Source: Thermobifida alba
GTDB taxonomy: Bacteria > Actinomycetota > Actinomycetes > Streptosporangiales > Streptosporangiaceae
Direction: 5' to 3'
Length of the DNA: 64,000 nt
Assembly: GCF_023208015.1 (NCBI RefSeq)
Contig: NZ_CP051627.1
Span: forward strand, 2,294,001-2,358,000
Positions 35,006 through 59,540 of this stretch are shown here, one piece after another. The notes under the pieces are model-generated. The model made no database searches. It was not told the origin of the DNA and worked only from the letters and a program-made list of their open reading frames with translations. Position 1 is the first letter of the stretch; each line of letters begins with the position of its first letter. The translations under genes and the position numbers were made by a program.

Positions 35006-35035
35006 TCCTGGGCGCCTTCCTCGGGGCGCCCAGGA
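35006..35035 (+). terminator. Attenuator hairpin between precursor and LanB genes
   Basis: A perfect 11-bp stem (35006-35016 and 35025-35035, loop of 8 nt) lies 15 bp after the precursor stop and 27 bp before the LanB start. Such partial terminators let lanthipeptide operons make more precursor than enzyme. There is no T-run. Confidence 0.75.
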
Positions 35036-35062
35036 AGTTCCTGTCCGGAGAAAGGATTCCCG

Positions 35063-38003: not shown

Positions 38004-39220
38004 TGCCGATCCGTGCCGGACGCGCCGCGGCCGCCGCGGCCGCGCGCCTGACCGAGCCCGCCGCCGTGCCCCTAGGTGCTCCTCCCCAGTCCCTGGCGGC
38101 GGGAGCGCTCGGAATCGCGCTCGTGCACATCGAACGCGCCCGCGGCGGCGACGAGGCAGCATGGCGCAGTGCCCATGCCTGGTTGCAGGCTGCGGCCCGC
38201 GACGGCGTGGACGCCACCGACCGGGCCCGCCTCTTCCACGGTGCTCCCGCGCTGGCGGCTGTCCTGGTCTGCGCCGACGACGAAAGCGGACGCTACGCCA
38301 CGGCCCGCAGCACGATGACGCACCATGTCCGTGCCGTGGCCCACCGTCGCCTCGATGCGGCATTTGCCCGCATGGACCGGGGCGCTCTCCCCGTCTTCGG
38401 CGAGTACGACCTCCTCAGCGGCCTGACCGGCATCGGCGCCGTACTGCTGCGCACGGACCCGGCTTCCTCTGCTCTGGAACGGGTGCTGTCCTACCTGGTC
38501 CGACTGACCGAACCGGTCCGTGTCGACGGCTGCCCGCTGCCGGGGTGGTGGGTGGGCCACGCTCCTCATCAGGGCGACCGGACCGGCTTCGCCGGTGGGC
38601 ACGCCAACCTCGGCATGGCACACGGCATCACCGGCCCCCTGGCTCTGCTCTCCCTGGCACTCCAGCAAGGAGCCATCGTCACGGGGCAGGTCGGGGCGAT
38701 CGTCCGCATCTGCGCCTGGCTGGACTCCTGGCAGCAGGACGCTCCCGCTGGGGCTTGGTGGCCCCGCTGGATCACCCGGGACGAGCACCGCGCCCGCCGC
38801 TGCACACAGCCGGGGCCGCTGCGCCCCTCCTGGTGCTACGGCACTCCGGCGATCGCGCGGGCCCAGCAGCTCGCCGCCCTCGCCACCGGAGACCTCGTCA
38901 GGCAGCGCAGGGCCGAGCAGGTTCTCGCCGATTGTCTGAACGATCCGGCCCAACTCGGCCAGATCATCGGCCCCGGCCTGTGCCACGGTTGGGCCGGGGT
39001 GTTCCAGACCGTCTGGCGCACCGCCCGCGACTCGCACACCCCGGTGCTCGCGGACTGCCTGCCGCGCCTCGCCGAACACCTCATCACGTGCGGCGCTTCC
39101 CGGCGAGGCGGGGAGGCCGGGTTCCTGGACGGGGACGCGGGGCTCGCTCTCGCGCTCCGCACCGCCGCACGTCCCGAGCCTCCCGCGTCCGACTGGGACG
39201 CATGCCTGCTGATCCGCTGA
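38003..39220 (+). CDS. LanC-like lanthionine cyclase
   Basis: 405 residues of the double alpha-barrel LanC fold. The zinc ligands are in place: Cys278 (SWCYGTPAIA) and Cys327-His328 (GLCHGWAGVFQ); the GxxHGxxG motif AHGITGPLALLSLAL provides the catalytic His. It adds Cys thiols to dehydrated residues to make the (methyl)lanthionine rings of the preceding precursor. Its ATG overlaps the LanB stop (TGATG). It is the last gene of the operon; no transporter or protease gene follows. Confidence 0.92.
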   Translation: MPIRAGRAAAAAAARLTEPAAVPLGAPPQSLAAGALGIALVHIERARGGDEAAWRSAHAWLQAAARDGVDATDRARLFHGAPALAAVLVCADDESGRYATARSTMTHHVRAVAHRRLDAAFARMDRGALPVFGEYDLLSGLTGIGAVLLRTDPASSALERVLSYLVRLTEPVRVDGCPLPGWWVGHAPHQGDRTGFAGGHANLGMAHGITGPLALLSLALQQGAIVTGQVGAIVRICAWLDSWQQDAPAGAWWPRWITRDEHRARRCTQPGPLRPSWCYGTPAIARAQQLAALATGDLVRQRRAEQVLADCLNDPAQLGQIIGPGLCHGWAGVFQTVWRTARDSHTPVLADCLPRLAEHLITCGASRRGGEAGFLDGDAGLALALRTAARPEPPASDWDACLLIR

Positions 39221-39324
39221 CCGGAGCCTTGACTCCGTCTGCTGGGGCGAGAAAGCGGTGCGGGAGAGTCCCGCCCGGAGGAGTGGAGCGGCGCATGCCC
39301 GCTTCGGTCGGAACGCCGAGTGCC

Positions 39325-39588
39325 CTACAGCGCGCCGCTCGTGGCCGCGCGGAGGAAGGCGTGCCACTCGGCGGCGGGGAAGGTGAGGAACCCGAGACCG
39401 CGCTGCGTGGAGTCGCGGACCGCGACCCGGGCGGGGGTGTCGAGGAGAGGACCCGCTTCGACGCACCTGCCACCGCCGTTGGCGCTGTAGCTGCTGATGT
39501 GCCAGCCGACTTCGACGCAGCTCTTGCCGCCGCTTGGACTGTAGCTGCTGATTCTCCAGTCGAGAACCAAAGTGTCGTCCTGGTTCAT
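39325..39588 (-). CDS. DUF397 protein with a duplicated N-terminal motif
   Basis: 87 residues. Two copies of a W-x-ISSYS-x2-GG-x2-CVE motif lie in tandem (residues 11-28 and 29-46) where DUF397 proteins have one; the C-terminus has the usual VAVRDSTQ and LTFPAAEWHAFL. DUF397 genes are small partners of XRE/DUF5753 regulators in filamentous actinobacteria, often linked to development. Its start overlaps the regulator stop by 4 bp. Confidence 0.88.
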   Translation of the reverse strand: MNQDDTLVLDWRISSYSPSGGKSCVEVGWHISSYSANGGGRCVEAGPLLDTPARVAVRDSTQRGLGFLTFPAAEWHAFLRAATSGAL

Positions 39589-40436
39589 CTCATCTCCTTC
39601 TGGAGTTCCACGATCAACTTGGCCGACTCCTCTGGACTCAGACTGCTCTCTCGAAGACGGTTGTACAGGACGTCGACTCTCTCTGCTTCGTGTGATTCCA
39701 AGTAAACCCCTCCAGCGACTCCCACGGTGTAGGCGACCAAGGGGAACGGGTCTTCCAAGTGGAGCAGGGTGAAACCTCCGTCCGGACTTGCGTGGGCTCC
39801 AGCCGAATAAGGAAGGACTCGAATCTCGATGTTGGACTGTTTCCCACAGACCAGCAGGTGTTGGAGTTGCTCTCTCATCACGTCCCGGCCACCAACGATC
39901 CTGCGCAAAGCTGCCTCGTCCAGGAGAACCTCCAACTCGACCGCCTTCTCACCACGCAGAATCTTCTGGCGTGCCATTCTCAACTCGACGCCCCGCTCGA
40001 TCTGAGCAGCGGAGTCATGGGGATTCACCGCACGCATCCATGCTTCCGCGTACTCCCTCGTCTGCAACAGCCCGTTGACCGGTGTCACCTCGTAGGCGCG
40101 GATATGCCTGGCCCGGCTCTCCAACCACACGTAGTCGACGAACCAGTCGGTGATGTCGTCGGAGTACTTCTCCCACCAGCCGGTCTTGCTGACCTCGCGG
40201 GACAACTGGATCAGCGCGGCGCGCTGGCGCTCCCCCTCCACTCCGTAGAGGTCCATCAGGGCGCGCACCTCCGGTTCCCGGATGGGCAGTGCCCCGGACT
40301 CGAACTTGCTGATCGCGGAGAAGCTGCGCTGGAGGTACTCGGCACTGTCGGTCAGCTTGAGCCCGTTCTGTTCCCGAAGTTCCTTGAGCATCTTGCCCAG
40401 CCACTGCGCCCGCAGCGTCGGCCGCCGTTTGGACAT
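39585..40436 (-). CDS. XRE-family regulator with DUF5753 domain
   Basis: 283 residues. A helix-turn-helix at residues 12-70 (LGKMLKELREQNGLKLTDSAEYLQRS, FSAISKFESG) is followed by the DUF5753 domain (residues 95-270; IRAYEVTPVNGLLQTREYAE, QHLLVCGKQSNIEIRVLPY). Together with the DUF397 gene it forms the common actinobacterial pair. Codon use is more A/T-rich than in neighbouring genes. The upstream tandem repeats are a likely autoregulatory site. It is convergent to the lanthipeptide genes and could be part of the same island, but regulation of them is not shown. Confidence 0.92.
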   Translation of the reverse strand: MSKRRPTLRAQWLGKMLKELREQNGLKLTDSAEYLQRSFSAISKFESGALPIREPEVRALMDLYGVEGERQRAALIQLSREVSKTGWWEKYSDDITDWFVDYVWLESRARHIRAYEVTPVNGLLQTREYAEAWMRAVNPHDSAAQIERGVELRMARQKILRGEKAVELEVLLDEAALRRIVGGRDVMREQLQHLLVCGKQSNIEIRVLPYSAGAHASPDGGFTLLHLEDPFPLVAYTVGVAGGVYLESHEAERVDVLYNRLRESSLSPEESAKLIVELQKEMR

Positions 40437-41096: not shown

Positions 41097-41340
41097 GCCG
41101 GGGCAGTTCCGGGTACGGGTCGGCGGCGTAGCGGCGCAGCAGCTCCTCCTCGTGGGCGCGCGCGGCCTCGGCGACGTCCTCGTTGAGTTCGCGCAGCGCC
41201 TCCCGGTAGGAGGCGACCCGCCGCTCGACGCGGTCGGCGATGCCGCCGGGGCTCCAGGCGCGGGCCGCGCGGGTGGCGCGGTACACCACGTAGCCGCCGA
41301 CCAGGGCGCCGGCCACGAAGGAGACGGTCCTGCCGATCAC
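41092..41340 (-). CDS. DUF6167-type small membrane protein
   Basis: 82 residues. One membrane helix near the N-terminus (VSFVAGALVGGYVVYRATRA) and a charged cytoplasmic helix (RVASYREALRELNEDVAEAA). In actinobacteria this gene follows DUF948 and precedes alaS. The start is GTG at 41340, overlapping the DUF948 stop (GTGA). Function unknown. Confidence 0.82.
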   Translation of the reverse strand: MIGRTVSFVAGALVGGYVVYRATRAARAWSPGGIADRVERRVASYREALRELNEDVAEAARAHEEELLRRYAADPYPELPRR

Positions 41341-41729
41341 GTGCGCTCCCTCCTGCGGCGGGTGCGGATCAGTGCCAGGGTCCTGCGCCGGCCCAGGACC
41401 CGGCGCATCCCGTAGGACAGCGACGCCACCTTGACGAGCGGCCCGGTCACCGCCGAGCGGGTGAGGGCGGTGACCGTGGACACGTCCTCGCTGCTGCTGG
41501 CGAGGTTGGCGGTGATCTCCTCGACCCGGTCGAGGGACCCGTTGGCCCGCTCGACCGTGGCCGCGAGGTCGTCGAGCAGTGGGGCGGTGTGTTCCCGGAA
41601 CTCGGACACGGCCCTGGTGGCCTCGGCCAGCAGGCGGGCGAGCCTGATCAGGGCCACGCACAGGAACACGGCCACCACGGCCCAGACCACGGCCGCGACC
41701 AGGGCCGCGAGTTCTCCTCCGGTGAGCAT
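41337..41729 (-). CDS. DUF948 membrane protein
   Basis: 130 residues. A single N-terminal membrane helix (ALVAAVVWAVVAVFLCVALI) then a heptad-like helix (LLDDLAATVERANGSLDRVEEITANL) and a basic C-terminus. DUF948 proteins are widespread and uncharacterised; in actinobacteria they lie between rarA and alaS. The pair is still there but separated from rarA by 12 kb and from alaS by 9 kb. Confidence 0.85.
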   Translation of the reverse strand: MLTGGELAALVAAVVWAVVAVFLCVALIRLARLLAEATRAVSEFREHTAPLLDDLAATVERANGSLDRVEEITANLASSSEDVSTVTALTRSAVTGPLVKVASLSYGMRRVLGRRRTLALIRTRRRRERT

Positions 41730-42160
41730 GCGGACTCCGCTAGCGCTTGAGGTCGTTGGGGTTGGAAGCGGACCGACCCGGGGTCGGCGAGGACGGCCTC
41801 CGATCGGCGGCCGTACGGCCCGGGAGGTCGGGCCGCCGCCTCAGGAAGAACCGGATTGGGTCTGACACTATCGCGGATTTCCTGTCCACCACGGGACGCG
41901 GCGCGGCGCTTCCCGCGCCGCGTCCCGCCGCCCCGTCCTTCCCGCGTCCCGCACCCGGCGGCGACGCCGCAGGCCAGGCACCTTCGGTAAAGAACTCGCC
42001 ACACGGAGTGGCGTATTTGCTCGGGCGTCCCCAGAGTGGAGGATAAAAACGTCTCAGTCTGACAAGATGACCGAGTTCTCCCGATAATGACGGAAACCAC
42101 CGACTGGCTACTGCTGCGCGTTTCAGCACTTCACCTCGGACTTTTTGAGACAGGACCACA
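41730..42160. other. Divergent promoter region between DUF948 and the pseudokinase operon
   Basis: About 430 bp. Apart from the plus-strand promoter at 42059-42088, I see no gene or strong repeat. The DUF948 promoter must lie here too. Confidence 0.4.
42059..42088 (+). promoter_or_regulatory. Sigma70-type promoter of the pseudokinase gene
   Basis: CTGACA (42059-42064), an 18-bp spacer and GATAAT (42083-42088), about 70 bp before the start codon. A good match for a housekeeping-type promoter in a GC-rich genome. Confidence 0.6.
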
Positions 42161-44077
42161 ATGAGTCGACGTTCCGAACGGACGATTTCCGTTCTGGTCC
42201 CGCCCGACCTGGCTCCCACCGCTCCGGAGGACCCCCGTTCCATCGGCCCGTACGTGCTGGTGGGTCGGCTCGGTGCGACGGAGGCGGGCCACGTGTACGC
42301 CGCGGTGCACCCGGACGTGGAGCCGGAGGTACTGCTGGCGGTCAAGGTCGTACCGCCCTCCCGGGTCGCGGACGAGGCCGCCCGTGCCCGACTGGAACAG
42401 CGGTTGCGCGCGCTGGGCGCCGTGGACGGGCGCTGCTACGTGCCGCCCGTGGCGTTCGACGTCCACGGGACGCCCGCCTGGCTGGCCATGCGCTACTCCC
42501 CCGGCACCCCGCTGGAGCAGTACACGGACCAGCGCGGCCCCATGAGCCTGGGACGGCTCACCGCCCTGGCCGCCGGTCTGGCCGAGGGGCTGTCCGCGCT
42601 GCACTCCCTGGACCTGGCGCACGGCGGCCTCACCCCCGGCAGCGTCCTGCTCAGTTCCGCCGGTCCCCGGCTCCTGGACTGCGCGCTGTCCGGTGAGGCC
42701 GCGGCACCGCCCGGGGCGGCGTCCTGGCTCAGCCCCGAACGGCTGCGGGGCGGGGAGCCCACCCCGGCCTGCGACGTGTTCGCCTGGGGTGCGGTCCTCG
42801 CCTTCGCCGGCACCGGGCGTCCTCCCTTCGGCACCGGGACCCCCGAGGAGATCGCCGAGCGGATCGAGTCGCAGCAGCCCGACCTCGACGGCCTCGCCGA
42901 CGAGATCCGGCCGCTGCTGGAGTCGGCGCTGTCCGCCGACCCCGAACAGCGGCCGGACACCCGCGACCTGGTGCGCTCCGCCATCGACCTGTGGGAGAGC
43001 AGCCTGGGGTCGGTCGGCAGCGAGGCCGGTCCCGGCTCCGGGGTCACCCGCGTGCTGAACCGGGAGTGGCAGGGGATCGTGGAGCCGGCCCTGCTGCCCC
43101 GGGTCGTCCACGTGGACGGCCGCGCCAAGGGCCGCAAGAGCGGACGCCTGTCCCTGACCATGCCCGTGCCCGTGCTCCCGTCCCCGCAGCGGTCGGCTCC
43201 GCCGCCGGCTGCCTCGACCGCGGCCCCGGCCGCCGAGCAGGACGGCGCGGCGGCGCCCCGGGAGGAGGCCGCCGCGGACGGTGCGGCCGAGCAGCGGGAC
43301 GGTGCCGCGGCGCCGGCCGCGGCCGGGTCCGAGACCGCCGCGGCCACCGCCACCGTCGCGGCTTCCACCGCGGTCGCCGAACCGCCGCCTCCCCCGTCGT
43401 CCTCCGCTCCCGCCCCGCCGCCTCCCGCGGCCCCGGCCACGCAGCCTTCCGGCGGTGCGGGCACGGGCGGGCCGAACCGGCGGCTCCTGCTGCTGGCGGG
43501 CGGCGCAGGTGCGGCCCTGCTCCTGGTGGGCGGCCTCGTCTGGGGGGCGGTCTCGCTGCTCGGCGGCGACTCCCCCGAACCGGGGGAGGACACCGCGGCG
43601 TCCGACACCGCGGACGAGGAGACCGTGCAGGCCGACCCGGTGCCCGAGTGGGACACCGGGACCCTCGTGGTGCGTCTCGACAGCTCCAGCGAGGTCAGCC
43701 TGCTGTCCGGCCCGTGGCCCTACACCCCGGTCGAACCCGCCTCCGGGGACGACGCGTTCGCGGGACTCGACGGCGCCGCGCTCACCCCGCAGGAGTGGAG
43801 CGAGGCGTGGGCCCCGGTCGAGGGCGTGGGTCAGCCGCTGGAGGCGCTGATCGCCTCCGACGCCGAGGTGATGTGCGCGCACTTCTGCCTCAACCCCGAC
43901 CAGGTGTACGTCGACGCGGAGGGCCGGGGAACCTACGCGGTCACCGGACGCGACCTGGCCAACTACCTGAGCTGGGGAGACGTGGTCATCGCCGAGGTGA
44001 CCTTCGGCGACCCCGACCCCGAGACCGGCCTCCCGGTGATCACGGGGGCCACGGAGCTGTACCCGCCCGCGGGCTGA
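42161..44077 (+). CDS. Membrane-anchored Ser/Thr pseudokinase
   Basis: 638 residues. Residues 25-290 follow the protein kinase fold: the ATP lysine is K62 (LLAVKVV), but the catalytic HRD is HGG (154-156; LDLAHGGLTPGS) and DFG is DCA (173-175), so phosphotransfer is unlikely. A Pro/Ala/Glu-rich linker (about 345-440) leads to one membrane helix (LLLLAGGAGAALLLVGGLVWGAV, about 446-468) and an outer domain of about 170 residues with two Cys (VMCAHFCLN) that I do not recognise. It probably senses something outside and signals by binding. The start is ATG at 42161 with AGGA upstream. Confidence 0.88.
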   Translation: MSRRSERTISVLVPPDLAPTAPEDPRSIGPYVLVGRLGATEAGHVYAAVHPDVEPEVLLAVKVVPPSRVADEAARARLEQRLRALGAVDGRCYVPPVAFDVHGTPAWLAMRYSPGTPLEQYTDQRGPMSLGRLTALAAGLAEGLSALHSLDLAHGGLTPGSVLLSSAGPRLLDCALSGEAAAPPGAASWLSPERLRGGEPTPACDVFAWGAVLAFAGTGRPPFGTGTPEEIAERIESQQPDLDGLADEIRPLLESALSADPEQRPDTRDLVRSAIDLWESSLGSVGSEAGPGSGVTRVLNREWQGIVEPALLPRVVHVDGRAKGRKSGRLSLTMPVPVLPSPQRSAPPPAASTAAPAAEQDGAAAPREEAAADGAAEQRDGAAAPAAAGSETAAATATVAASTAVAEPPPPPSSSAPAPPPPAAPATQPSGGAGTGGPNRRLLLLAGGAGAALLLVGGLVWGAVSLLGGDSPEPGEDTAASDTADEETVQADPVPEWDTGTLVVRLDSSSEVSLLSGPWPYTPVEPASGDDAFAGLDGAALTPQEWSEAWAPVEGVGQPLEALIASDAEVMCAHFCLNPDQVYVDAEGRGTYAVTGRDLANYLSWGDVVIAEVTFGDPDPETGLPVITGATELYPPAG

Positions 44078-44126
44078 GCAGGGAAACGCGGCCTCGCGTT
44101 CCCGCGGGGGACTTCCCGGCAATCAC

Positions 44127-44155
44127 CGGACAATCCCGGCCCGGGAGCCGATAAT
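44127..44155 (+). promoter_or_regulatory. Promoter-like element before the Ser/Thr kinase gene
   Basis: CGGACA (44127-44132), a 17-bp spacer and GATAAT (44150-44155), 31 bp before the kinase start. It matches the layout and -10 sequence of the promoter at 42059, so the two genes may be co-controlled while each has its own promoter. Confidence 0.5.
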
Positions 44156-44186
44156 CGACGGAGAACCCCCGACCGCAGGAACGTCG

Positions 44187-45836
44187 ATGCCCCACGGTTT
44201 CCCGCCCGACCTGTCCCCCCTTCACCCCGACGACCACGGGATCCGCATCCCCGGGTACCGGATCGTCGGCCGTCTGGGTGAAGGGGGCATGGGCGTCGTC
44301 TACGCCGCGCTGGACGCCCGGAGGCAGCCCGTGGCGTTGAAGCTCATGCGCGCGGAGATGTCCCCGGACATCGGACAGCGGCGCCGGCGGTTCCACTCCG
44401 AGGTGCGGACGCTGCGGCGGGTCCGCGACGAGCACATCGTCCCGCTGCTGGACGCCGGCGTGTCCGGAGGGCGTCCCTGGCTGGCCACCGCCTACGTCCC
44501 GGGGCAGAACCTGCAGCGGTGCGGGAGGCTGTCCGGCCCGCGCCTGCTCCTGCTGGCCCGGGGGGTGGCCCGCGCGCTGCACGCCATCCACCGGGCGGGC
44601 GTCGTGCACCGCGACCTCAAACCCTCCAACGTCATGATCCGCCCCGACGGGGTGCCCGTGGTGCTGGACTTCGGCATCGCGAGGTCGCTGGCCGACACGG
44701 GGCTCACCGGGACCGGCGCGCCGCCGGTCGGCACGGCGGGCACGATCAGTCCGGAACGGTACCGGGGCGTGTCCGCCCCGCCGGCGGACGTCTTCGCCTG
44801 GGGCTGCCTGGTGGTGTTCGCCGCGACCGGACGGCAGCCCTTCTCCGGGTCCTCCCCCGAGGAGGTCATGCACCGGGTGCTGCACGGGCAGCCCGACCTG
44901 CACGGGTTCACCGGTCCGCTGGCGGACCTGGCGGTGCGGGCGATGGCCCGGGACGCCGGGGCGCGTCCCACCGCGCACCAGCTGGTGGAGGCCCTCGGCT
45001 CCGCCGAGGCCCCGGCGCGGTCCGCGCCGCCCCGGAGCGGACGGTCCGCGGGCGACACGGCGACCCTGCTGGTCCTGGAGATGCAGCGGCACCACGACGA
45101 TCCGCTTCCCTGGCTGCGCCGCAACCGGGAGCGCCTGGTCGGCGAGGCGCGGCGGCTGGGGGTCGCGGACCGGGCGCTGCTCGACCTGCTGCACAACCTG
45201 CCGGAGGAGGGGCTCTCCTCCGCCGCGGTGGAGGAGGCCCTCGCCGTCCTCGCCGTCCGGCTCGCCCCGCACGAACGCCCCCGCTACCGGGGCCACCCCG
45301 TCGACGAGGACGGGCTCGTGGCGCTGGCCTGCGGCGGGGCCGCCGAGCAGGCGCTGCTGCGCCGCCTGCTGGGCGAGCGCAGCCTGATCGTCGAACGGTA
45401 CGCGGCCCGGCACCTGTGCCGGCACGGCCTGTGCGTGGGCAAGTACCTCGGCCGGGGCTGCCGGATCCTGCGGCGGCTCCGCTCCGAGGTCGCCGCGGTC
45501 GTGGCGCACACCCGGGAGCCGCTGCGGGAACTGCGCCACCAGATCTGGGCCGAGCACGACGCGCTGGGGCACCCGAGGATCCTGCTGCCCCCGGACCGGG
45601 AGCTGACCGACCGGGTCCACGCGACGGCGCTGCTGGTGCGGCGGCGCAGCAGCGAACTCGACCGGCACCGCGAGGAGGTGCTGGCGCTGCGGTGCCCCAC
45701 CCGGTGGTGGGCCAGTCAGCAGGAGGCGGTGCTGCGGGCCGACCCCAACACGGACCGGGGACTGGCCTGGGTGGTCATCGCCTCGGTCGCCGCGGACACG
45801 GCGCGGCGGTTCGCCGAGGCGGCCGCAGCGGAGTGA
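44187..45836 (+). CDS. Soluble Ser/Thr protein kinase with unknown helical C-terminal domain
   Basis: 549 residues. The kinase is intact: glycine loop GEGGMGVVYA (31-40), K52, HRDLKPSN (141-148), DFG (161-163) and the PVGTAGTISPERYRG activation region. There is no membrane helix or PASTA domain. Residues 320-549 form a helical, Arg/Leu-rich domain with several Cys and His (AARHLCRHGLCVGKYLGRGC) that I cannot name; its RHLCRHG-type repeats are reminiscent of effector-associated adaptors, but this is speculative. It likely phosphorylates partners encoded by the convergent operon. ATG at 44187 behind GCAGGAA. Confidence 0.9.
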   Translation: MPHGFPPDLSPLHPDDHGIRIPGYRIVGRLGEGGMGVVYAALDARRQPVALKLMRAEMSPDIGQRRRRFHSEVRTLRRVRDEHIVPLLDAGVSGGRPWLATAYVPGQNLQRCGRLSGPRLLLLARGVARALHAIHRAGVVHRDLKPSNVMIRPDGVPVVLDFGIARSLADTGLTGTGAPPVGTAGTISPERYRGVSAPPADVFAWGCLVVFAATGRQPFSGSSPEEVMHRVLHGQPDLHGFTGPLADLAVRAMARDAGARPTAHQLVEALGSAEAPARSAPPRSGRSAGDTATLLVLEMQRHHDDPLPWLRRNRERLVGEARRLGVADRALLDLLHNLPEEGLSSAAVEEALAVLAVRLAPHERPRYRGHPVDEDGLVALACGGAAEQALLRRLLGERSLIVERYAARHLCRHGLCVGKYLGRGCRILRRLRSEVAAVVAHTREPLRELRHQIWAEHDALGHPRILLPPDRELTDRVHATALLVRRRSSELDRHREEVLALRCPTRWWASQQEAVLRADPNTDRGLAWVVIASVAADTARRFAEAAAAE

Positions 45837-45841
45837 CCCGG

Positions 45842-45872
45842 GCTCCGCCGCGGTCGACGGCCGCGGCGGAGC
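45842..45872. terminator. Bidirectional terminator between the two convergent operons
   Basis: Perfect 12-bp arms (45842-45853 and 45861-45872) with a 7-nt loop, placed exactly between the kinase stop and the stop of the MotB-like gene. Confidence 0.85.
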
Positions 45873-45877
45873 GGCGC

Positions 45878-46414
45878 TCACTCCAGGAAGAACACCGACA
45901 GCTCGACGGCTCCGGGACTGCCGCCGGTCCACAACTCCCGGTACTTGGCCCCCTCGAACTGGGGGATCTCCGCGACAGCGATCTCGACGACCTCGGCGGC
46001 GAACTCCTTGGCCGCCCCGATCTGCTGGTTGCTGCCGCTGCCGAAGGCGATGACGAAGCCGATCTCCCGCTGCTCGGTCAGGTGCTCGCGGCACTTGTCG
46101 CTGGGTTCGCCGTGGCCGTCGTCGGTGTTGAAGTCGCTGTCGTCCGGGTCGGACAGGATGCGGCCGAGTTCGGCCACGACCCTGTCGGGGTCCACGTCGA
46201 ACCCGTTGCCCAGGCGGACGGTGAACTCGCAGGAGTCGGGGCTCAGCAGCTTCGGCGGGGGAGGCGGCGGGGGTTCGGGCGCTTCTGGGGCGTTCTGGGC
46301 GCTGAGCGAGACGAGGAACAGCACCAGCAGCAGGTCCGCGAAGAGCCATCCCGCCAGGTGGACGGCTGGTGCCCGCCCGTTGGCGGGCCTGCGGCGGCGT
46401 CCGGTCAGGACCAC
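45878..46414 (-). CDS. Small membrane protein with MotB/ZorB-like membrane helix
   Basis: 178 residues. A short basic N-terminus, then one membrane helix with an acidic residue at its start (GWLFADLLLVLFLVSLS; Asp27), the pattern of MotB/ExbD/TolR/ZorB stator subunits where this Asp carries protons. A Pro-rich stretch (EPPPPPPPK) links to an outer domain of about 125 residues (CEFTVRLGNGFDVDPDRV, IGFVIAFGSGSNQQIGAA) that is a distant candidate for an OmpA-like fold. The start is GTG at 46414, overlapping the previous gene by 10 bp. Assignment is by layout and motif, not by a secure family match. Confidence 0.72.
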   Translation of the reverse strand: MVLTGRRRRPANGRAPAVHLAGWLFADLLLVLFLVSLSAQNAPEAPEPPPPPPPKLLSPDSCEFTVRLGNGFDVDPDRVVAELGRILSDPDDSDFNTDDGHGEPSDKCREHLTEQREIGFVIAFGSGSNQQIGAAKEFAAEVVEIAVAEIPQFEGAKYRELWTGGSPGAVELSVFFLE

Positions 46415-47619
46415 GGGTCCTCCTCGCGGCCGCCGTCCGCCTCCCCGTCCCGGCGGTTCGCCACGTCGCGCTGCACTCCCTTGACGAGGAAGCCGAGGTC
46501 GTCGGCGAGGTCGGTGAACTCGTCGAGCGCCTGCCGCAGAGTGCTGCTGGACTGCTCGGTGAAGGCGCCGAGCCGGTCCTGGGCCGCGGCCAGCTCCTCG
46601 GAGACCTTCTCCAGTTTCTCCAGGGCGGCGGCGATGCGGTCCATGGTGTCGACGGCGAACCGCGCCGACTCGGCGGTGCGCTGCTCGACGAGGTCGTTCT
46701 GCTGCCGGAGCAGGTCCAGGGTGTGGCGGGTCTGCTCGCTGAGCCGGTCCTGGCCCTCGACGGTGCTGCGGGTGAGGGCGGTGAGGCTGTCGAGGAGTTC
46801 GGCGGGGGTGCGGGCCTCCCGGACGGCGTCGGCGAGCTGCCCCATCCGGGTCTGCCAGGCGTCCAGCGCGTCGACGAGCTGCTGCCGGGGGTCGCCGGTG
46901 AACGCCTCGGCGATGTCGGCGGCGGCCTGGCGCATGTCGGCGGCGGCCCGGTGCATGCTGTCGGTGGCGGCGCCCAGGGCGTTCTCCATGCCGGCCATCG
47001 CCCTGCGGACCCCCTGGAGGGTCTCGTTGGCGCCGCGGACCTCCGCGCGCACCGAGTCGGGGCGGTCGGGGATCAGGTAGGTGGCCAGGGCCAGCAGCTG
47101 GACGATCTCCTCGCGCTGGCGGCTGCGGTCGCTGAACGCCTCGACCGCTCCCTCCAGGACGTGGACGAGCAGGGTCGCGCCGATGACGCCGAGCAGGAAG
47201 ACGCAGACCCAGGACGCGGTGGTGCTGAGCGGCTCGAACTGGGCGGTTCCGGTGAAGCCGCCCTGCTGCCAGCCGTACAGGAAGTTGGCGCCCTGGGGGG
47301 CCTCGCCGAAGGCGGACAGCACCTGCATGAGCTGGTACCAGGTCCAGAACACGGGGAGGAAGATGAGGACGTCGCGGACTCCGCGCAGCAGCCACAGCAG
47401 CAGGTGCGTCCAGCGCGGCGGGGAGGCGTCGGGCATCAGGGAGTCGGGCGGGTAGGCGGCGGCCAGGTCGGTGCCGGCCAGGCCCGCGCCGCCGTCGGCC
47501 AGGCCGCGCGCGAGCGACCGCAGCAGTTGTGCGCCCGCCGGCGGGGCGGTGCGGGCGTACCGGTCGAGCTGCTCGGCGATGTCGGCCAGGTCGTGGTCAC
47601 GGTCGGTTGACGCGCTCAC
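46405..47619 (-). CDS. Coiled-coil membrane protein (MotA/ZorA-like layout)
   Basis: 404 residues. Two hydrophobic segments, about 70-98 (LLLWLLRGVRDVLIFLPVFWTW) and 133-157 (SWVCVFLLGVIGATLLVHVLEG), then a long cytoplasmic helix/coiled coil to about residue 385 (ALEKLEKVSEELAAAQDRLG). That is the topology expected of a stator subunit with a long tail, as in ZorA, next to a MotB-like partner; MotA itself has four helices, so this may be a reduced or unrelated version. GTG start at 47619 overlapping the GAP1-like stop (GTGA). Confidence 0.75.
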   Translation of the reverse strand: MSASTDRDHDLADIAEQLDRYARTAPPAGAQLLRSLARGLADGGAGLAGTDLAAAYPPDSLMPDASPPRWTHLLLWLLRGVRDVLIFLPVFWTWYQLMQVLSAFGEAPQGANFLYGWQQGGFTGTAQFEPLSTTASWVCVFLLGVIGATLLVHVLEGAVEAFSDRSRQREEIVQLLALATYLIPDRPDSVRAEVRGANETLQGVRRAMAGMENALGAATDSMHRAAADMRQAAADIAEAFTGDPRQQLVDALDAWQTRMGQLADAVREARTPAELLDSLTALTRSTVEGQDRLSEQTRHTLDLLRQQNDLVEQRTAESARFAVDTMDRIAAALEKLEKVSEELAAAQDRLGAFTEQSSSTLRQALDEFTDLADDLGFLVKGVQRDVANRRDGEADGGREEDPWS

Positions 47620-50549
47620 CTGGAGGTCTCCTCAACTGCGGGCGACGGGGAGGCGGGGGTGTCCTGGGGCGGGGCGGAGACGGCGGGGCCGCTCTGTTCG
47701 GGCGGGGAGGACCAGTCGCTCCCGCCGCTCCCGACGACCGCGACCACGACGAGGACGACCACGAGCACGAGGAGGACAGCCAGGAACACGGCGAAGAGCA
47801 GCGTCCGGAGGACGGGGCTGCGGCATCCCCTGCCCTCGCCCACGAAGGTGCTGTCGGTCGGTCCCCGTCCCGGGTGGCCCCACACCCCCCGGCGGTCCCT
47901 CCCGTCCGGGCGGGCCCGCTCCGGTTCCGGTTCTGCCGGTGCGGGCTGCTCGGCCACGTCCTCGTACCACTGGGGGGCGGGCTCGCCGGGGCGGGGCGCG
48001 GCGCCGGTGCCCTCCGCCGCCTGCCGCGGGGTTCGGGGGGCCTCGTCCGGCTCCTCGTCGGTGGACGCGAAGCTCGGGCGGGCGGTGTCGTGGTCGGCTC
48101 CGTCCCGGGCCGTCGGGCGGTGCTGTCGCGCGGTGCTCCCGGAGGAGGCGTACGGCGGCTCCGGGATCGACGGTTCGTCGCGGCCGGGATCGCCGTCCTC
48201 CGCCTCCACGGGGCCGCGGGACGGCAGGGCGAGCGGAGGAGCCGCCTTCTTCGCCCCGGTGCTGCTCCGCGACAGCAGCGACCGCAGCCGTCCGGGCCGC
48301 GTACCGCTGTCGGCGGTGGCGGGCGGCCGTCCGACGATCGTCATGAGGTCGGGCCGGTCCTGGAGGCTCTCCACCATTTCGGGGGAGAACACGCGCCACA
48401 GGCGTTCGGAGGCCGGGGTGTGGGCGCTCTCGGTGCGGGAGACACGGATCAGCGCCAACCGGAAGTAGGCGGGCCGGGGGTACAGTTCCGCCCGCTCCAG
48501 TTCCTCCACCTTCCTCTCGGGGAGGGCGCGGCTGCCGGGAGGCGGGGGCGTGCGCCCGTCGGCCAGCGGCGGCACCTCTCCGCTGGCCAGCCACATCAGG
48601 TCCGCGAAGGCGAGGATGATCTCCTGTCCCGCCTGTCCGTAGCGGTCCCTGCCGCGCAGGGCGTACAGCTCCTCCTGGAAGTGTCCGTGCTCCCGGCACA
48701 TCCGCTGGAAGCCCTCGACCGGCAGCGCGTCGGCGCGCCGCAGTTCGACCAGGGTCTTCACGATCCCGCGGAACTCCCGGAGGGTCGGGGCCCCCGCCAG
48801 CCGGTCCACCAGGTAGGGGAGCGCGCCGTCGAGCAGTGCGGCGGTTTCGCGGTCCGCCAGGAAACCTCTCAGCCTGTACCAGAGCCGCAGGCGCTCCTTG
48901 ACGGAGAGGTACCGGGCCGCCACCGGGAGGAGGGAGGGGAGCAGCCGGTGCGTGTCGACGGCGGCCAGGTCCTCCGGCAACCGGTCGGACAGCCGGGAGT
49001 CGGTCCGGCCGGGGCCCGGGGGGCCGTAGCCGAGTCCGAGCAGGTGCGCGAAGACCGCCTGCCGCCGCTCCGCGGTCTCGTCGGCCAGCGCGTCCAGCAG
49101 GAAGCCCCGCTTCCGCAGCGCGGCGCGCACCTCCGGCCGGTCCTCCGGAAGGTCCGGGTACTCCTGCAGGGCGGCCAGGATCCCGCGGCGGAACTCCCGG
49201 GCCATGACGTCCCCGGTGTGGCTGCCGGCGAGCGTGACCAGGGTCGCGGCGGGGACCCCCAGGCCGGTCAGCAGGTCGCGGACCTCGGCGGTGGACAGCC
49301 GGGCGAGCTGGTGCGCGTGCCACAGCAGCGTGTCGAAGTCGGCGGCGGGGCGGCCGCTGCGGTCGCGCCACAGGTGGCGCACCCGGTCGGTGACCGGGCG
49401 CAGTTGCGCGTGGCGCTCCTCCGGCCGCTCCGGGACGGGAGGGGAGAACACCTGCCTGCCCGCACCGCGCAGGTCGTCGAGGTCGGGGTCGTCCCGCCAG
49501 TCGAGGGCGAGGCCGGCGACCCGGTCCCGCAGCAGCGCGGTGAGGCCCCGGGGGGCGCGGGGCCAGCCTCCCCAGGCCCGGCACAGTTTGGCCAGTTCGT
49601 CGGGGCCCAGCGCGGCGAACTCCTGCCGCGCCCAGCGCAGGGTGTCCTCCTGGGCCAGGTAGCGGCGGGCCGAGGCGTCCCCCTGGAGCGCCCGCAGCAG
49701 CAACCGGTACAGGCCCTCGCGCTGGTAGTGCAGGTCGGACAGGCCGCGCCGGCGCTCCTCCGGGCTGGTTGGGACGGCCCGCGACGGGTCGGCGAGCGCC
49801 CGGTCCACCAGGTAGCCGATGTCGTCGGCCCACTCCTCCAGCGGCGCCCGGCTGGCGGGGGACTTGCGGTACCAGTGGGAGGGCGGGATGTGCAGCCTGG
49901 TCTTCTCCGCGGTGACCGCGATCCGCGGCTGGGCCGACGCCGCCTGGACGTCCCCCTCGACGACCAGGGAGACGTCCAGCAGGCAGGCCAGCGCGTGTCC
50001 GAGGGCGTAGGGGTCGCTGTGCGCCCCGGCGAAGTGGAAGTGGTAGTCGGGGTGGTGCAGCACGTGCCGCAGCAGCGCCGCGACCTCCTGCGGGTCGGCC
50101 CGGCCGGGGACCGTGGACGCGGTGTCCAGGTCCGCGGGGTCGAGCGCGGGCAGGTGCGGGTCGGGCAGCGGTCCGTCCTGGGGGGGCAGCCACCCCGCCC
50201 AGTGCCGCAGGCCGAGGGCGAGCCGGGCGGTCAGCACCTCGTCCGCTCCCAGCAGCGCGTGCACCTGGTGGGAGCCTCTGGAGGAGGTCGGTACCGCGTC
50301 GGCGCGGACGACCACGGCCAGGCCCGGGCGGGACCGCGGGCGCAGCAGGCCGAGCGCGGGGCGGTCGGGGCGCAGCGGCCCGACCAGGTCCCCGTTGTCC
50401 AGCAGGTCGCTCCACCGGGCGAGGTCCCGCTGGTCCGACAGGGACGTTCCCACCGGGCCGACGCCCCGTCCGCCCAGCAGGTGCTGGTCGGTCCAGCGGA
50501 ACACCACCTGGTGGATCCGCGTGTCCCGCTCTCCGCGGGTTGTGCTCAC
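47616..50549 (-). CDS. GAP1-like GTPase-associated protein with C-terminal membrane helix
   Basis: 977 residues. The N-terminus (IHQVVFRWTDQHLLGGRGVGPVGTSL) matches what I recall of the GTPase-associated protein 1 N-terminal domain, followed by a large helical middle region. Residues about 750-905 are low-complexity and charged; one membrane helix follows (LLFAVFLAVLLVLVVVLVVVAVV) with a short Pro/Ser-rich outer tail. In published genomic surveys GAP1 genes travel with TRAFAC double-GTPases in conflict-type systems, and here the GTPase gene lies 11 bp upstream. The start is GTG at 50549 behind AAAGGGGACGGG. Function is inferred from context. Confidence 0.78.
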   Translation of the reverse strand: MSTTRGERDTRIHQVVFRWTDQHLLGGRGVGPVGTSLSDQRDLARWSDLLDNGDLVGPLRPDRPALGLLRPRSRPGLAVVVRADAVPTSSRGSHQVHALLGADEVLTARLALGLRHWAGWLPPQDGPLPDPHLPALDPADLDTASTVPGRADPQEVAALLRHVLHHPDYHFHFAGAHSDPYALGHALACLLDVSLVVEGDVQAASAQPRIAVTAEKTRLHIPPSHWYRKSPASRAPLEEWADDIGYLVDRALADPSRAVPTSPEERRRGLSDLHYQREGLYRLLLRALQGDASARRYLAQEDTLRWARQEFAALGPDELAKLCRAWGGWPRAPRGLTALLRDRVAGLALDWRDDPDLDDLRGAGRQVFSPPVPERPEERHAQLRPVTDRVRHLWRDRSGRPAADFDTLLWHAHQLARLSTAEVRDLLTGLGVPAATLVTLAGSHTGDVMAREFRRGILAALQEYPDLPEDRPEVRAALRKRGFLLDALADETAERRQAVFAHLLGLGYGPPGPGRTDSRLSDRLPEDLAAVDTHRLLPSLLPVAARYLSVKERLRLWYRLRGFLADRETAALLDGALPYLVDRLAGAPTLREFRGIVKTLVELRRADALPVEGFQRMCREHGHFQEELYALRGRDRYGQAGQEIILAFADLMWLASGEVPPLADGRTPPPPGSRALPERKVEELERAELYPRPAYFRLALIRVSRTESAHTPASERLWRVFSPEMVESLQDRPDLMTIVGRPPATADSGTRPGRLRSLLSRSSTGAKKAAPPLALPSRGPVEAEDGDPGRDEPSIPEPPYASSGSTARQHRPTARDGADHDTARPSFASTDEEPDEAPRTPRQAAEGTGAAPRPGEPAPQWYEDVAEQPAPAEPEPERARPDGRDRRGVWGHPGRGPTDSTFVGEGRGCRSPVLRTLLFAVFLAVLLVLVVVLVVVAVVGSGGSDWSSPPEQSGPAVSAPPQDTPASPSPAVEETSR

Positions 50550-50560
50550 CCCGTCCCCTT

Positions 50561-52006
50561 TCACGTCGGCTCGCGCACGCCTCGCACGTAGTCGTGGTTG
50601 ATCGTCTGCGGGTCGATGAGTCCTGTCATGGCGAACAGGGACAGCAGCGGGCGCAGGACGCGCATGTGGCGGAACTTCCGCTTGTTGTAGCGTCCGTCCC
50701 GCTCCTCGCAGCCGGTGGCCGAGGCGAAGTGCAGGGTGGCGTCCTCGAAGGCGTTGACCGGTTGCAGCCACTCCCTGGCGCCGTTGGTCGCGCAGTAGAC
50801 GTAGACGTCCTCGCTCTCCTGGTCGACCGTCTCCAGGTGGAATTCGTCGTCGCGCTCCAGCCACCTGCTGACCCAGTACTCCTCCTGGGCGAGGAGGAGG
50901 TCGGCCTTGGCGAGGACCACGACCGCGGGCTTGGGCAGCGGGTGCTTGCGCTGTCCCGACGCGCGCGCCACCAGCCGCTCGTCCTGGCGGAGCTTGTTGA
51001 TCACGTTGCCGAACCCCGAGGGGTGGAGCAGTCCGCGGCGCTTGCCGTCCCAGCCGTACAGCGACTGGCCGTCCGCGACGAAGATGTAGGCGTCCAGCCC
51101 GTAGATGAACTGGAGGCGGCTGCGTGCCTTGGAGTCCAGGAAGAGCTCCCCGGCCACGTCGAAGAAGCTCACCACGCAGTCGGTCTCCTCGCCGTTCCAG
51201 GTGCTGGTGACCGTGTAGGCCATGCGGAACTCGACGGGGTCGGTCCGGTTGGTGCGGCGCAGGGCGGTGCGCTGGTCGGGGGCGAGGAACCCGGCCACGT
51301 CCTCCCGCTGCATGTAGTGCTCCCACATCTCGGCGAAGGGCTGGACGTACACGCCGAGCGCGGCGAGTTCCTCCTCCTCTTCCTGCAGGCGGTGCAGCAT
51401 CGCCGCCAGCAGGTGCGACTTGCCGGAGCGGGTGGTCCCGATGAGTCCGATGTTGAGGGTGCGGCGGATCTGGCAGTACTCGTAGGGGATGTAGTGCGGT
51501 TCGGACAGTTCGTTCTCGTCCGGCTGGGGGTCGAGGACGGGCCTGGGCTGCGCCCCGGTGGTGCTCTCCCAGTCGTCTCCGTCGTCGGCGTCCTCCGCCA
51601 GCGCGAAGGGGGACCGGGCGGGCTCGTCCTCCGGGTCGTCGAGGTCGATCCCGCCGGAGAAGACGGTCGTGGGGGCACCGTCCCCCGCGCCGGCCGCGAA
51701 GACGGCGGTGGAACCGTCCAGGACGTCGGTGGGGTGGTCGAAGGGGTCGGCGTGGTATCCGGGGTCCGCCTGGCCGGCGGGGTCGAGGCGCGCCTCCCTG
51801 CGGCACTCCAGGTAGGTGTTGCCGCGGTTGTAGGCCGCGACCCCCAGCAGCCCGCGCTGCCGGACCGCGTCGGTGACGTCGCCCTGCACCTCCTGGGTGG
51901 CGATGTCGCGGATCACGCTCCTGGCCCGCGAGGTGTCGATCTGCGCGAGGCAGTACGGGCAGTTCACCGTCGGCGGCAGGTCCGCCGGCCGGCCCGGGTG
52001 GCTCAT
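50561..52006 (-). CDS. TRAFAC-type (double-GTPase family-like) GTPase with N-terminal Cys motif
   Basis: 481 residues. CPYC (16-19) plus Cys68 may bind zinc. A disordered acidic linker (about 75-170) precedes the GTPase: Walker A GTTRSGKS (190-197), switch/Walker B SFFDVAGELFLDS with Asp283, and VVVLAKADLLL as the base-specificity region. The pattern fits the GTPase class I recall as DO-GTPase2 in NTP-dependent conflict systems. ATG at 52006 overlaps the pseudokinase stop (TGATG), so the two proteins are probably made together and interact. No membrane helix. Confidence 0.83.
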   Translation of the reverse strand: MSHPGRPADLPPTVNCPYCLAQIDTSRARSVIRDIATQEVQGDVTDAVRQRGLLGVAAYNRGNTYLECRREARLDPAGQADPGYHADPFDHPTDVLDGSTAVFAAGAGDGAPTTVFSGGIDLDDPEDEPARSPFALAEDADDGDDWESTTGAQPRPVLDPQPDENELSEPHYIPYEYCQIRRTLNIGLIGTTRSGKSHLLAAMLHRLQEEEEELAALGVYVQPFAEMWEHYMQREDVAGFLAPDQRTALRRTNRTDPVEFRMAYTVTSTWNGEETDCVVSFFDVAGELFLDSKARSRLQFIYGLDAYIFVADGQSLYGWDGKRRGLLHPSGFGNVINKLRQDERLVARASGQRKHPLPKPAVVVLAKADLLLAQEEYWVSRWLERDDEFHLETVDQESEDVYVYCATNGAREWLQPVNAFEDATLHFASATGCEERDGRYNKRKFRHMRVLRPLLSLFAMTGLIDPQTINHDYVRGVREPT

Positions 52007-53070
52007 CACAGCATCCTTCCCAGCAGCACCCCGAGGACGGTCGTCGCCACGGCCACGGCGCCGATCGCGAACCAGCGGGTCGTCGTGTCCCACCGGTCGA
52101 GGCGGCCGAGCAGGTGGCGTGCGGCGCGCGCCGCCCCCTCGTCCCACATGACCCGCCACGGCGACCGCGGTGGCAGCTCGTCCGGAATGGACGGGAGCGA
52201 CGGTTCCCGAGGGGGCGGGGGATAGCGTCTGCGGCGTATGTCCTCGTGCTTGGCCCTGAGGCTGCGGAACTTCCGCCGTGCCTCGGCCTCCTCTGCGGTG
52301 TCCTGCCGCTGCGGTACGGGGGCCGTGCCGCTGTCCCCGGTCCTCGGCAGCACCAGGTGGCCGGCCCGTTCCAGGGCCTCGAACGCGTTGATCCGCCGGT
52401 CCTGCGGCTCCAGTGCGGCGGCGAGGAGGTCTCCCAGGCCGGACAGTCGGCTGTTGAGGTCCCGTCGGGCGCTGTGGGACAGGTCGCCGTTGAGGGGGCG
52501 TCCGGTGGCGACGTGGTAGAGCAGCCGGGCCGCGTCGGCGACGTCGGTGCTGCGCTGCCTCCCGTCGGGGTCGCGGCTCGCCCGGTGGTAGCGGGCGAGC
52601 ACCGCCTCGCGCTGGTTCCACAGCAGGCTGGAGGTGTTGACTGCGCCGTGGGCGTAGCCGACGCGGTGCAGGACGGTCAGGGCCTCGTACACGTTGACGG
52701 CGATCTTGCGGATCGCTCTGGGCGGGACCGGCAGGAGGCCGGGGGCCTCCTGGATCGCCGGCTCCAGGTAGAAGATCCCGCCCTTCCCCCTGGGGACGCG
52801 CAGGACGAGTGCGGCCGGGGCGCGGTGGCCGGGGTGCCCCGTGGGGACGTACTCGGCGAGGCTGCGCGGGAACGGTCCACCGGTCCCGCCGATGACGGCG
52901 CCGGTGGCCTGCTCCGCTCTGGCGGCCTCGGCGGCCAGCCGCTCGGCGGATTCGGGGTCGACCGCTTCGATGACCACTTCGGCCCGCCTCGGGTCACCGC
53001 TGTTGTCGGCCCGGAAAGAATAGCGGTAGAAGCCGTCCTCCTGCACCGGCCCGGTGGCGTACTCGGTCAT
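52006..53070 (-). CDS. Divergent pseudokinase with C-terminal membrane anchor
   Basis: 354 residues. A degenerate kinase fold is suggested by VYEALTVLHRVGYAHGAVNTSSLLW, equivalent to the catalytic-loop region with HRD replaced by HGA and no DFG (AVLARYHRA), and by DVADAARLLYHVATGRPL. A charged linker follows and the protein ends in a single membrane helix (WFAIGAVAVATTVLGVLLG). It heads the minus-strand operon and is likely a scaffold or sensor for the GTPase. ATG at 53070 (CAGGAACCACTGG upstream) is preferred; an in-frame start at 53148 is possible. Confidence 0.77.
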   Translation of the reverse strand: MTEYATGPVQEDGFYRYSFRADNSGDPRRAEVVIEAVDPESAERLAAEAARAEQATGAVIGGTGGPFPRSLAEYVPTGHPGHRAPAALVLRVPRGKGGIFYLEPAIQEAPGLLPVPPRAIRKIAVNVYEALTVLHRVGYAHGAVNTSSLLWNQREAVLARYHRASRDPDGRQRSTDVADAARLLYHVATGRPLNGDLSHSARRDLNSRLSGLGDLLAAALEPQDRRINAFEALERAGHLVLPRTGDSGTAPVPQRQDTAEEAEARRKFRSLRAKHEDIRRRRYPPPPREPSLPSIPDELPPRSPWRVMWDEGAARAARHLLGRLDRWDTTTRWFAIGAVAVATTVLGVLLGRML

Positions 53071-53582
53071 CCAGTGGTTCCTGCCCCGTTCAGGTCCGCT
53101 GTCGGGTGTCCGGTGTCGTTCACCCGAAAATTTGCCGCGCGAAACCATAATGGCTCATATCGAACCACCCTATCCCCTTTTTTGGGGATTCATTCGGGAC
53201 AGGTGTCGCCTCTACCGCTCCCCAGCCGTCCACTCGGACAGTCCCCGCCGGCACCCATCGGCGCACCGGTACCACGCGGCAGCCCACCGCACACAATGCG
53301 ATTGTTTTCTCTTTTTTCTCACATTCCGCCGGGCGCCGCCTTTTTCCCGAGTGCGAATACCCCCAAAGCACTCACAATGGGATATTCATCAACCGTGGTC
53401 CGCGCCCACGGCGCGGGGAATGCCGCCTCCGGCCGGATGCACCGGCCCCGGCCCGGCCCCCTTCGGGACGCGGCGGCAGCGCCGACCGCACCGCGCAGGC
53501 CCGCACCGGGACCGGTGCGGTGACCGGTTCCGGTCACCGGGGCGGACCGCCGCGTCGTGCCCCGCCCGGTCCGGCGGACCGG
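53071..53582. promoter_or_regulatory. A/T-rich region upstream of the GTPase operon
   Basis: About 510 bp with no supported gene. Around 53100-53400 the base composition drops sharply, with ATCCCC-T6-GGGGAT (53172-53189) forming a small perfect hairpin about 100 bp before the operon, and T-rich tracts near 53300-53350. It likely holds the operon promoter and marks the junction with rarA. Confidence 0.45.
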
Positions 53583-59397: not shown

Positions 59398-59540
59398 GGG
59401 GACCTTTCGCTGGTTCTTCCGGAACACACGGCGCGGGTGCTCCCCACTGGCCGACAGCACGTGCGTCACTGTCGGAAACCAGTCCGCGACGCACGATCAC
59501 TCTAGTGAGCGGAAAAGAGCAAGAAAAGGGGGACGCGACC

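Follow-up and report, generated by a model that had tools for sequence, protein, structure and literature searches.

The analysis concerns a 64,000-nucleotide (nt) stretch of Thermobifida alba DNA (assembly GCF_023208015.1, contig NZ_CP051627.1, positions 2,294,001 to 2,358,000), hereafter called the window, and within it a locus of seven genes labeled A to G. Six of these genes appear to form a membrane-bound module in which a small membrane protein pair, D-E, is combined with a pseudokinase, a GTPase, a GAP1-like protein and a Ser/Thr kinase. The genes and features of the locus, in window coordinates and with protein lengths in amino acids (aa), are as follows.

52006–53070, minus strand: A, 354 aa, pseudokinase-fold protein with a C-terminal hydrophobic segment read as one membrane helix
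50561–52006, minus strand: B, 481 aa, TRAFAC-type GTPase of the DO-GTPase2 family
47616–50549, minus strand: C, 977 aa, putative divergent GAP1-N2-type protein with one C-terminal membrane helix
46405–47619, minus strand: D, 404 aa, predicted helical N-terminus, two membrane helices and a long coiled coil; candidate A subunit
45878–46414, minus strand: E, 178 aa, one predicted membrane helix with Asp27, a proline-rich linker and an alpha/beta domain; candidate B subunit
45837–45877, both strands: strong hairpin between the convergent G and E stops, candidate bidirectional terminator
44187–45836, plus strand: G, 549 aa, Ser/Thr kinase whose catalytic motifs are intact, extended at its C-terminus
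42161–44077, plus strand: F, kinase-fold protein without the catalytic Asp in the window copy; resident neighbor, probably outside the module
44080–53517: stretch missing from congener G130, taken as the empirical module boundary (128 nt there between the aligned flanks)

All seven reading frames are intact, with F and G on the plus strand and A to E on the minus strand. The minus-strand genes are tightly packed, with overlaps of 1 nt between A and B (TGATG), 4 nt between C and D (GTGA) and 10 nt between D and E, and a gap of 11 nt between B and C; F and G are 109 nt apart. The two convergent, tightly overlapping groups described in the original prediction, which had been made from the DNA sequence of the window, were thus confirmed, with two corrections: the first ATG of F lies at 42161 and not at 42059, and F and G are separated by the 109-nt gap just given. 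The 41 nt from the G stop to the E stop are occupied by a strong hairpin folding on both strands (−40.8 and −38.5 kcal/mol, window 45831–45885). Since this hairpin has no T-run, the shared terminator proposed for G and E is putative. In a Pfam scan of the seven proteins, B, F and G scored above the curated cut-off, and A, C, D and E had no match above it.

The extent of the module was delimited by comparison with a congener, genome G130. In blastn against its stretch L173, window positions 41116–43254, 43413–44079 and 53517 onward aligned. Positions 44080–53517 were unaligned except for a 61-nt match upstream of G (44126–44186, 72%, E-value 8.5e-4), which is weak and is the only match below an E-value of 0.01 inside the missing stretch. 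The congener retains rarA and F (81.7% identity over 290 aa; its copy reads HGD at the site that is HGG in the window), G is missing together with all of A–E, and no GTPase homologue was found anywhere in G130 at an E-value of 1e-10. Because G130 has F but neither G nor A–E, F was set aside as probably not a part of the system. Judged from this comparison, the functional unit is most likely A-B-C-D-E plus G, with F a resident neighbor; the seven-gene system originally proposed stands in that A–E and G go together, and loses F.

Relatives were collected by scanning 84,980 bacterial and archaeal species for E, which gave 318 pattern matches, of which 75 loci were confirmed by tblastn; as the loci are limited to these confirmed matches, distant relatives are missed. 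The genes of relatives came from a guanine-cytosine (GC) frame caller, which misses genes in lower-GC loci (L095), and the cluster names used below rest on one or few Pfam-scanned representatives. D was present in all 75 E loci, and in 57 of them E started 4 nt inside the end of D (start codons chosen by us). A phylum-wide look at 396 genomes returned the window's own genome only, with nine first-look candidates scored in each genome listed, which is too narrow a basis for a prevalence. The E alignment has 75 rows, namely the window, seven loci from a search within the taxonomic order and 67 of the 75 scan loci. It omits L048, L050 and L051 (second copies) as well as L104, L106, L110, L120 and L122 (long, split or cut), and at least two of its rows are duplicates (L055 and L059, second copies of contigs also entered as L034 and L031). 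The D alignment has 78 rows (the window, the same seven loci and 70 of the 75). Profiles were made from 34 of 43 rows for C, from 44 of 75 rows for the E helix alone and from 39 of 78 rows for the D membrane part, and the comparison sets held 13 of 20 loci for GAP1-N2, 16 of 25 for MotA and 11 of 16 pattern hits for MotB.

B matched DO-GTPase2 (PF19993) at 27.5 bits, just above the cut-off of 27, and a relative (L034:7143-8258) matched it at 43.1 bits, in agreement with the TRAFAC-like GTPase predicted here. The Walker A motif of B reads GTTRSGKS; by pattern, Walker A was found in all 28 B rows from the 75 loci, a DxxG-like motif in 18 and an xKxD-like motif in 14. With regard to the N-terminal zinc ribbon of DO-GTPases, one CPYC pair is visible in B and no Pfam zinc-ribbon match was obtained. 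The window copy of C had no GAP1 match in Pfam. A profile of 34 C homologues matched a GAP1-N2 profile of 13 proteins (probability 85, E-value 6.2e-6, 245 columns), PF20013 was matched by 1 of the 34 aligned homologues (E-value 9.3e-4), and the strongest hydropathy peak lies at residues 921–939. On the strength of these two matches C is read as a divergent GAP1-N2-type protein with a C-terminal membrane helix; the GAP1-like partner of the original prediction is in line with this, remotely and through the profile–profile match only. In L103 (6842-8658) the GAP1-like gene is seemingly split into two overlapping frames, perhaps by a sequencing error or as a broken gene.

No Pfam match was found for A at E-values up to 1, and its matches to MkoA/mad6 kinases were weak (0.001 and 0.007). 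It carries HGAVNTSS at the HRD site, where the catalytic Asp is missing, and its membrane helix was read from sequence alone. The kinase-fold gene directly upstream of the GTPase showed the HRD pattern in none of the 22 loci where it is present; in 15 of the 22 A homologues even a loose pattern found no motif, so that "dead" is there read from absence. In L079, L088 and L091, the latter two close relatives, the A homologue is fused in frame to the GTPase. G matched Pkinase at 113.3 bits and has HRDLKPSN and DFG in its translation, and F matched Pkinase above the Pfam cut-off with HGG at the HRD site. Read from these translations, G is the one Ser/Thr kinase with intact motifs, and A and F both lack the catalytic Asp, as had been predicted.

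The AlphaFold2 model of D (mean predicted local distance difference test score (pLDDT) 76.3, predicted template modeling score 0.48) has helices at residues 69–105 and 131–163, in blocks with pLDDT of 90–96, followed by long helices at lower confidence. Together with two hydropathy peaks in 72 of 78 rows, the model supports the predicted two membrane segments and long coiled coil. P89, W94 and W117 are conserved in 78/78 rows and T93 in 76/78, so that the first helix carries an invariant Pro and a near-invariant Thr. E was modeled with one membrane helix, a proline-rich linker and an alpha/beta domain (mean pLDDT 87.9); one hydropathy peak was seen in 72 of 75 rows, and LAGWLF and Asp27 are present in every one of the 75. 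The E homologues of L104 and L120 are longer than most (240 and 234 aa). When the helix-only E profile was compared with 177,635 distinct PDB sequences, four matches were obtained at E-values up to 10, namely cytochrome b559 (0.15), ExbD (0.71), TolR (2.9) and ExbD (4.9), none of them significant alone. An Asp of ExbD and of TolR, which we take to be the functional Asp of these proteins, sits on Asp27 in the alignments, and the range of the third match fits the same register.

Set against a stator-type reading of the pair are a number of search results. The two best PDB matches of the full-length E profile were again ExbD (0.24 and 0.25), not significant alone, and against the MotB profile E reached a probability of 3.4, through the outer domain rather than the helix. 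No Foldseek match for E fell below 1e-3; the top 20 included the SiiA peptidoglycan-binding domain and OmpA-like domains (probability 0.87–0.99), and this fold match is unspecific, with unrelated folds ranking above OmpA. For D, no PF01618 (MotA_ExbB) match was found in the Pfam scan, hhalign comparison with the MotA profile gave 0.4 and 0.5, the membrane part had no PDB sequence match, Foldseek gave no match better than 0.41, and MotA, ExbB and ZorA were absent among the best 60 of 350 PDB matches. Known A subunits also have more membrane helices than the two of D. PADLOC ZorA matches to D cover residues 198–388 only, which is the coiled coil past the membrane helices, and the NCBIfam ZorA model matched at 261–376 with an E-value of 0.053. 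Within the scope of these sequence and fold searches, homology of D to MotA, ExbB or ZorA was rejected, and the profile comparison led to the same verdict for E and MotB. E was likewise rejected as a member of a known Pfam family, as 14 families were each matched by only 1–4 of 75 members at E-values up to 0.1, with OmpA_like matched by a single one (0.032). Weak PF01618 regions were also scanned by pattern for ExbD-like partners, and none were found.

The lack of significant homology between D and any A subunit, and the weak profile support for E, would fit an arrangement with no relation to stators, in which D is a two-helix coiled-coil scaffold, E a wall-binding anchor and Asp27 serves only to pair the helices. 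We regard this as rather unlikely in view of the absolute conservation of the Asp in the E helix, the ExbD/TolR identity of three of the four helix-profile matches, the near-invariant Thr and invariant Pro in the first helix of D, and the D/E gene overlap. We infer that D-E works like a stator pair; that it is one is a candidate reading. Of the MotA/MotB-like pair originally proposed, the stator-like reading of E is supported by its ExbD/TolR-like helix with the invariant Asp27, and homology of D to MotA, ExbB or ZorA was not found.

The D-E pair occurs in distinct gene contexts. A GTPase and/or GAP1-like gene is present in 23 of the 75 loci (22 with both, 6 with two GTPase genes) and a vWA and/or PP2C gene in 38 (35 with vWA, PP2C and a kinase); neither context was seen in 14 loci and both together in none. 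These counts are lower bounds, because some of the 14 end at contig ends (e.g., L061, L110 and L122). On the D tree the contexts split at a branch with 100/98 support, one side of which comprises 24 GTPase-context rows, including the window, and two others. By family, the GTPase-context rows belong to Nocardiopsidaceae, Thermomonosporaceae, Streptosporangiaceae, Streptomycetaceae, Micromonosporaceae, Pseudonocardiaceae and Catenulisporaceae; loci with the genes arranged A-B-C-D-E were found in seven actinobacterial families. In the reverse direction, among 20 stretches around B homologues from the taxonomic order, D and E were present in seven, two were cut by a contig end, and in 11 the pair was not found. 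GTPase/GAP1-like pairs and D-E are therefore each found without the other, and the two together make up one recurring combination. The recurrent A–E order supports the original prediction. Routine separation of the homologues, which would speak against that prediction, was seen in part: no GTPase/GAP1 gene was found at 52 of 75 D-E loci, some of them cut by contig ends, and neither D nor E in 11 of 20 GTPase stretches.

Further arrangements were observed in passing. L037–L047 are GTPase loci without D or E, several of which adjoin three large genes (about 800, 1040 and 780 aa). A third D-E context was seen in L111, L113, L117 and L119, where the pair is accompanied by a gene of about 700 aa and by a convergent kinase, the latter followed by three more conserved genes (c46, c47 and c48); the 700-aa gene of L111 (5468-7642) had no Pfam match. 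In L087 and L109 (Streptosporangium), where no member of the vWA or PP2C clusters was seen, the neighbors of D-E are a small gene, an N6 methylase, a kinase and a gene of 748 aa.

The usual order in the 38 vWA/PP2C loci is D-E-vWA-PP2C-kinase. DxSxS was present in 37/37 vWA proteins, and the PP2C cluster and a kinase-fold protein were each found in 36 loci. The kinase-fold protein is atypical: two CxxC motifs were found in 0/36, so that no zinc ribbon was seen, and the copy in L063 had no Pfam match. BrxD was found in 8 of the 38 loci, a DEAD helicase in 8 and an N6 methylase in 7. These 38 loci, which fall in the range L057–L118 (L063:8520-13298 and L084:8085-17074 are examples) and combine D-E with vWA, PP2C and an atypical kinase, in eight cases with BrxD and a DEAD helicase, possibly represent a second undescribed system.

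Within the GTPase context, the genes next to the shared block are exchanged. In 14 of the 23 loci the neighboring genes encode an EAD1-CHAT protease and a protein of the E1-like ThiF type, 13 of the 14 also having an EAD1-YukD-E2 gene, and the remaining nine (Thermobifida, Actinorugispora and Actinomadura) have a G-type kinase with an intact motif; kinase and EAD1 cassette were together in 0/23. L033, which came from the search within the taxonomic order and lies outside the 75, also has D-E with the EAD1 cassette. With partner modules exchanged around it, D-E would be the constant sensing end rather than the end effector, and the analogy with Zorya, in which ZorAB is the common core, together with the effector type of the exchanged genes, suggests a direction from sensor to kinase. 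D-E looks like a constant front end and the kinase like one exchangeable output. This reverses the direction of the original prediction, in which an outside signal, read by the pseudokinases and relayed by the kinase and GTPase, would open or drive an ion channel at the membrane. On that reading D-E would be the effector, an ion channel or motor whose opening depolarizes the cell. That D-E is the effector would agree with its presence in all 75 loci, like a shared killer (the loci having been found through E), and with the pore-forming SLATT effectors described for GAP1-N2 systems in passages of Kaur et al, 2020 (PMC7159879). It is made improbable by the caspase-like/E1 effector-type cassette beside D-E in 14 of the 23 GTPase-context loci and by BrxD and helicase genes in 8 of the 38 sister loci, where the exchanged parts are effector-like and D-E is constant.

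We favor, with a probability of roughly 45%, a six-gene membrane-bound conflict or stress-response module in which D-E senses, A-B-C set a threshold and G is the output. D and E would form a stator-like membrane complex in which the two helices of D surround the Asp-bearing helix of E, with the outer domain of E touching the cell wall and the coiled coil of D reaching into the cytoplasm. When the wall or membrane is damaged, as may happen on phage entry, this complex would be altered; the membrane-held pseudokinase A would relay the signal to B and C, the pair that would set the threshold. The switch would then release an output, which would be kinase G here and the EAD1-caspase/ubiquitin-like cassette in other actinobacteria. 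In the sister branch, the receiver of the D-E signal would be a vWA/PP2C/kinase triad of TerY-P-like type, which in some loci has BrxD, a helicase and a DNA methylase next to it. The predicted role of the Thermobifida module is probably defense or envelope stress.

Several observations count against this proposal. On the D tree a single clade (10 rows, 98/89) holds the nine kinase loci and the window, so the exchange of kinase and cassette may be a single event, and the 14 and the 9 are not to be counted as independent cases. The locus occupies one chromosomal site adjoining rarA in both Thermobifida and Actinorugispora, 26 pattern matches in viral contigs included no relative, and two E queries against plasmids gave no match. 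Such a chromosomal setting, and the LytR-CpsA-Psr and UDP-glucose dehydrogenase family genes near several sister-type Streptomyces loci, would suit envelope signaling of a housekeeping or developmental kind (cell wall, hyphal growth, sporulation) instead of defense. We consider this role improbable, since the whole block is missing from the congener, the partners are of conflict type (EAD1-CHAT, BrxD, N6 methylase) and C and A evolve fast. The ratio of nonsynonymous to synonymous substitutions against T. cellulosilytica, from a simple Nei-Gojobori count on this one species pair with no codon-bias correction, was 0.84 for C, 0.61 for G, 0.61 for A, 0.60 for D, 0.47 for B and 0.25 for E, with 0.15 for rarA and 0.21 for the SpoIIE gene for comparison. 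A flanking gene at 58942–59469, which has no known link to the module, reached 0.74, near the rate of C, so rate alone is no marker of defense.

A wider interpretation, which we put forward tentatively and hold to be somewhat doubtful, is that with D-E a new family begins, one of minimal envelope sensors of stator type with two helices, which stands apart from Zorya and which actinobacteria have wired to at least three signal-and-output chemistries. In this equally tentative scheme the three would be pseudokinase/GTPase/GAP1 with a Ser/Thr kinase, the same with caspase/ubiquitin-like conjugation, and a TerY-P-like switch with BREX-type DNA processing. If D-E works like Zorya, motor-like envelope sensing would be a portable front end and not a peculiarity of Zorya, and D-E would be a concrete candidate for the input of the DO-GTPase/GAP1 systems, whose prediction from genomes dates from 2020. 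Since the system is small, lies on the chromosome and occurs in named strains of Thermobifida, Actinomadura and Streptomyces, both points are testable.

In the surroundings of the locus, a lanthipeptide class I-type cluster lies at 33505–40436, with a PCMT-like methyltransferase (33505–34767), LanB (35277–38003), LanC (38003–39220) and an HTH/DUF5753 regulator (39585–40436); about 34706–39311 of this region had no match in the congener stretch L173. A DUF948 protein (41337–41729) and a PAS/GAF/SpoIIE phosphatase (55604–57622) are also encoded nearby.

Known systems were compared through the relevant passages of the papers cited. Kaur et al, 2020 (PMC7159879) describe DO-GTPase/GAP1-N2 conflict systems predicted from genomes, with a kinase/PP2C/vWA theme for GAP1-N2 systems, and assign genes for EAD1, caspase-like and Ubl/E1/E2 proteins to FtsH ternary systems. 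The window locus resembles the former in that a GTPase of DO-GTPase2 type precedes a GAP1-N2-related protein whose C-terminus carries a membrane helix, and also in its membrane setting, its actinobacterial distribution and its kinase theme, and the EAD1/caspase/Ubl/E1/E2 genes of its relatives are known from the sister system. Its additions are the D-E pair and a pseudokinase that lies upstream of the GTPase and in some loci is fused to it. The FNIII part of DO-GTPase/GAP1-N2 systems was not seen, with no fn3 match in the seven proteins (E-values up to 1) or in ten flanking ones (up to 0.001), and PP2C and vWA beside a kinase were found neither in the seven proteins nor in ten scanned neighbors. 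The main text of PMC7159879 contains neither "mota" nor "tolq", and its passages on these systems join no D-E-like pair to them.

Among the TerY-P triads (PMC11090510, passages on the triad), the likeness is to the sister context, with its vWA bearing DxSxS, PP2C and kinase-fold protein. The TerY-P kinase has a zinc ribbon; the sister-context kinase differs in lacking two CxxC motifs, and the triad is absent from the window locus. The text covered of a 2026 BREX survey (PMC12839542) has no match for Zorya, MotA, PP2C, stator or GTPase, and its vWA matches are MoxR systems. Among the 5:2 ion motors ExbBD, TolQR and MotAB (PMC12505986, in part), the FxDxxLVL pattern of the E helix resembles ExbD and TolR, and E has the single-helix B-subunit character with a helix Asp; the difference lies in the lack of a significant profile match for D or E. 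In titles, the beginnings of abstracts and selected passages of the open-access literature, bioRxiv preprints lying outside this scope, no description of the present combination was found. To our knowledge, Zorya alone offers a clear case of immunity making use of an ion-motor-like pair.

In Zorya, according to the passages of PMC11890865 on its core, ZorAB is common to the types, ZorE is the effector module of one type, and D24 of ZorB is needed for defense. D-E resembles it in a two-protein membrane core, an Asp in the B-subunit helix, an outer domain that would face peptidoglycan, a predicted long cytoplasmic tail on the A subunit and effector genes that differ by type. Of the features of ZorB, the Asp is invariant in E, PADLOC gave no match for E, and OmpA-like domains appeared only among weak Foldseek matches. 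ZorC/D, ZorE and ZorF/G had no PADLOC match among the seven proteins (for protein G, among the best 25 of 34 matches). Unlike Zorya, the pair is linked to GTPase, GAP1 and kinase genes; further differences are the two membrane helices of D, its lack of a MotA_ExbB match and, for E, the lack of a ZorB or OmpA family match over the cut-off. By this comparison, the locus appears to be a variant of the GTPase/GAP1 conflict systems and not a Zorya, and it may work in a Zorya-like manner.

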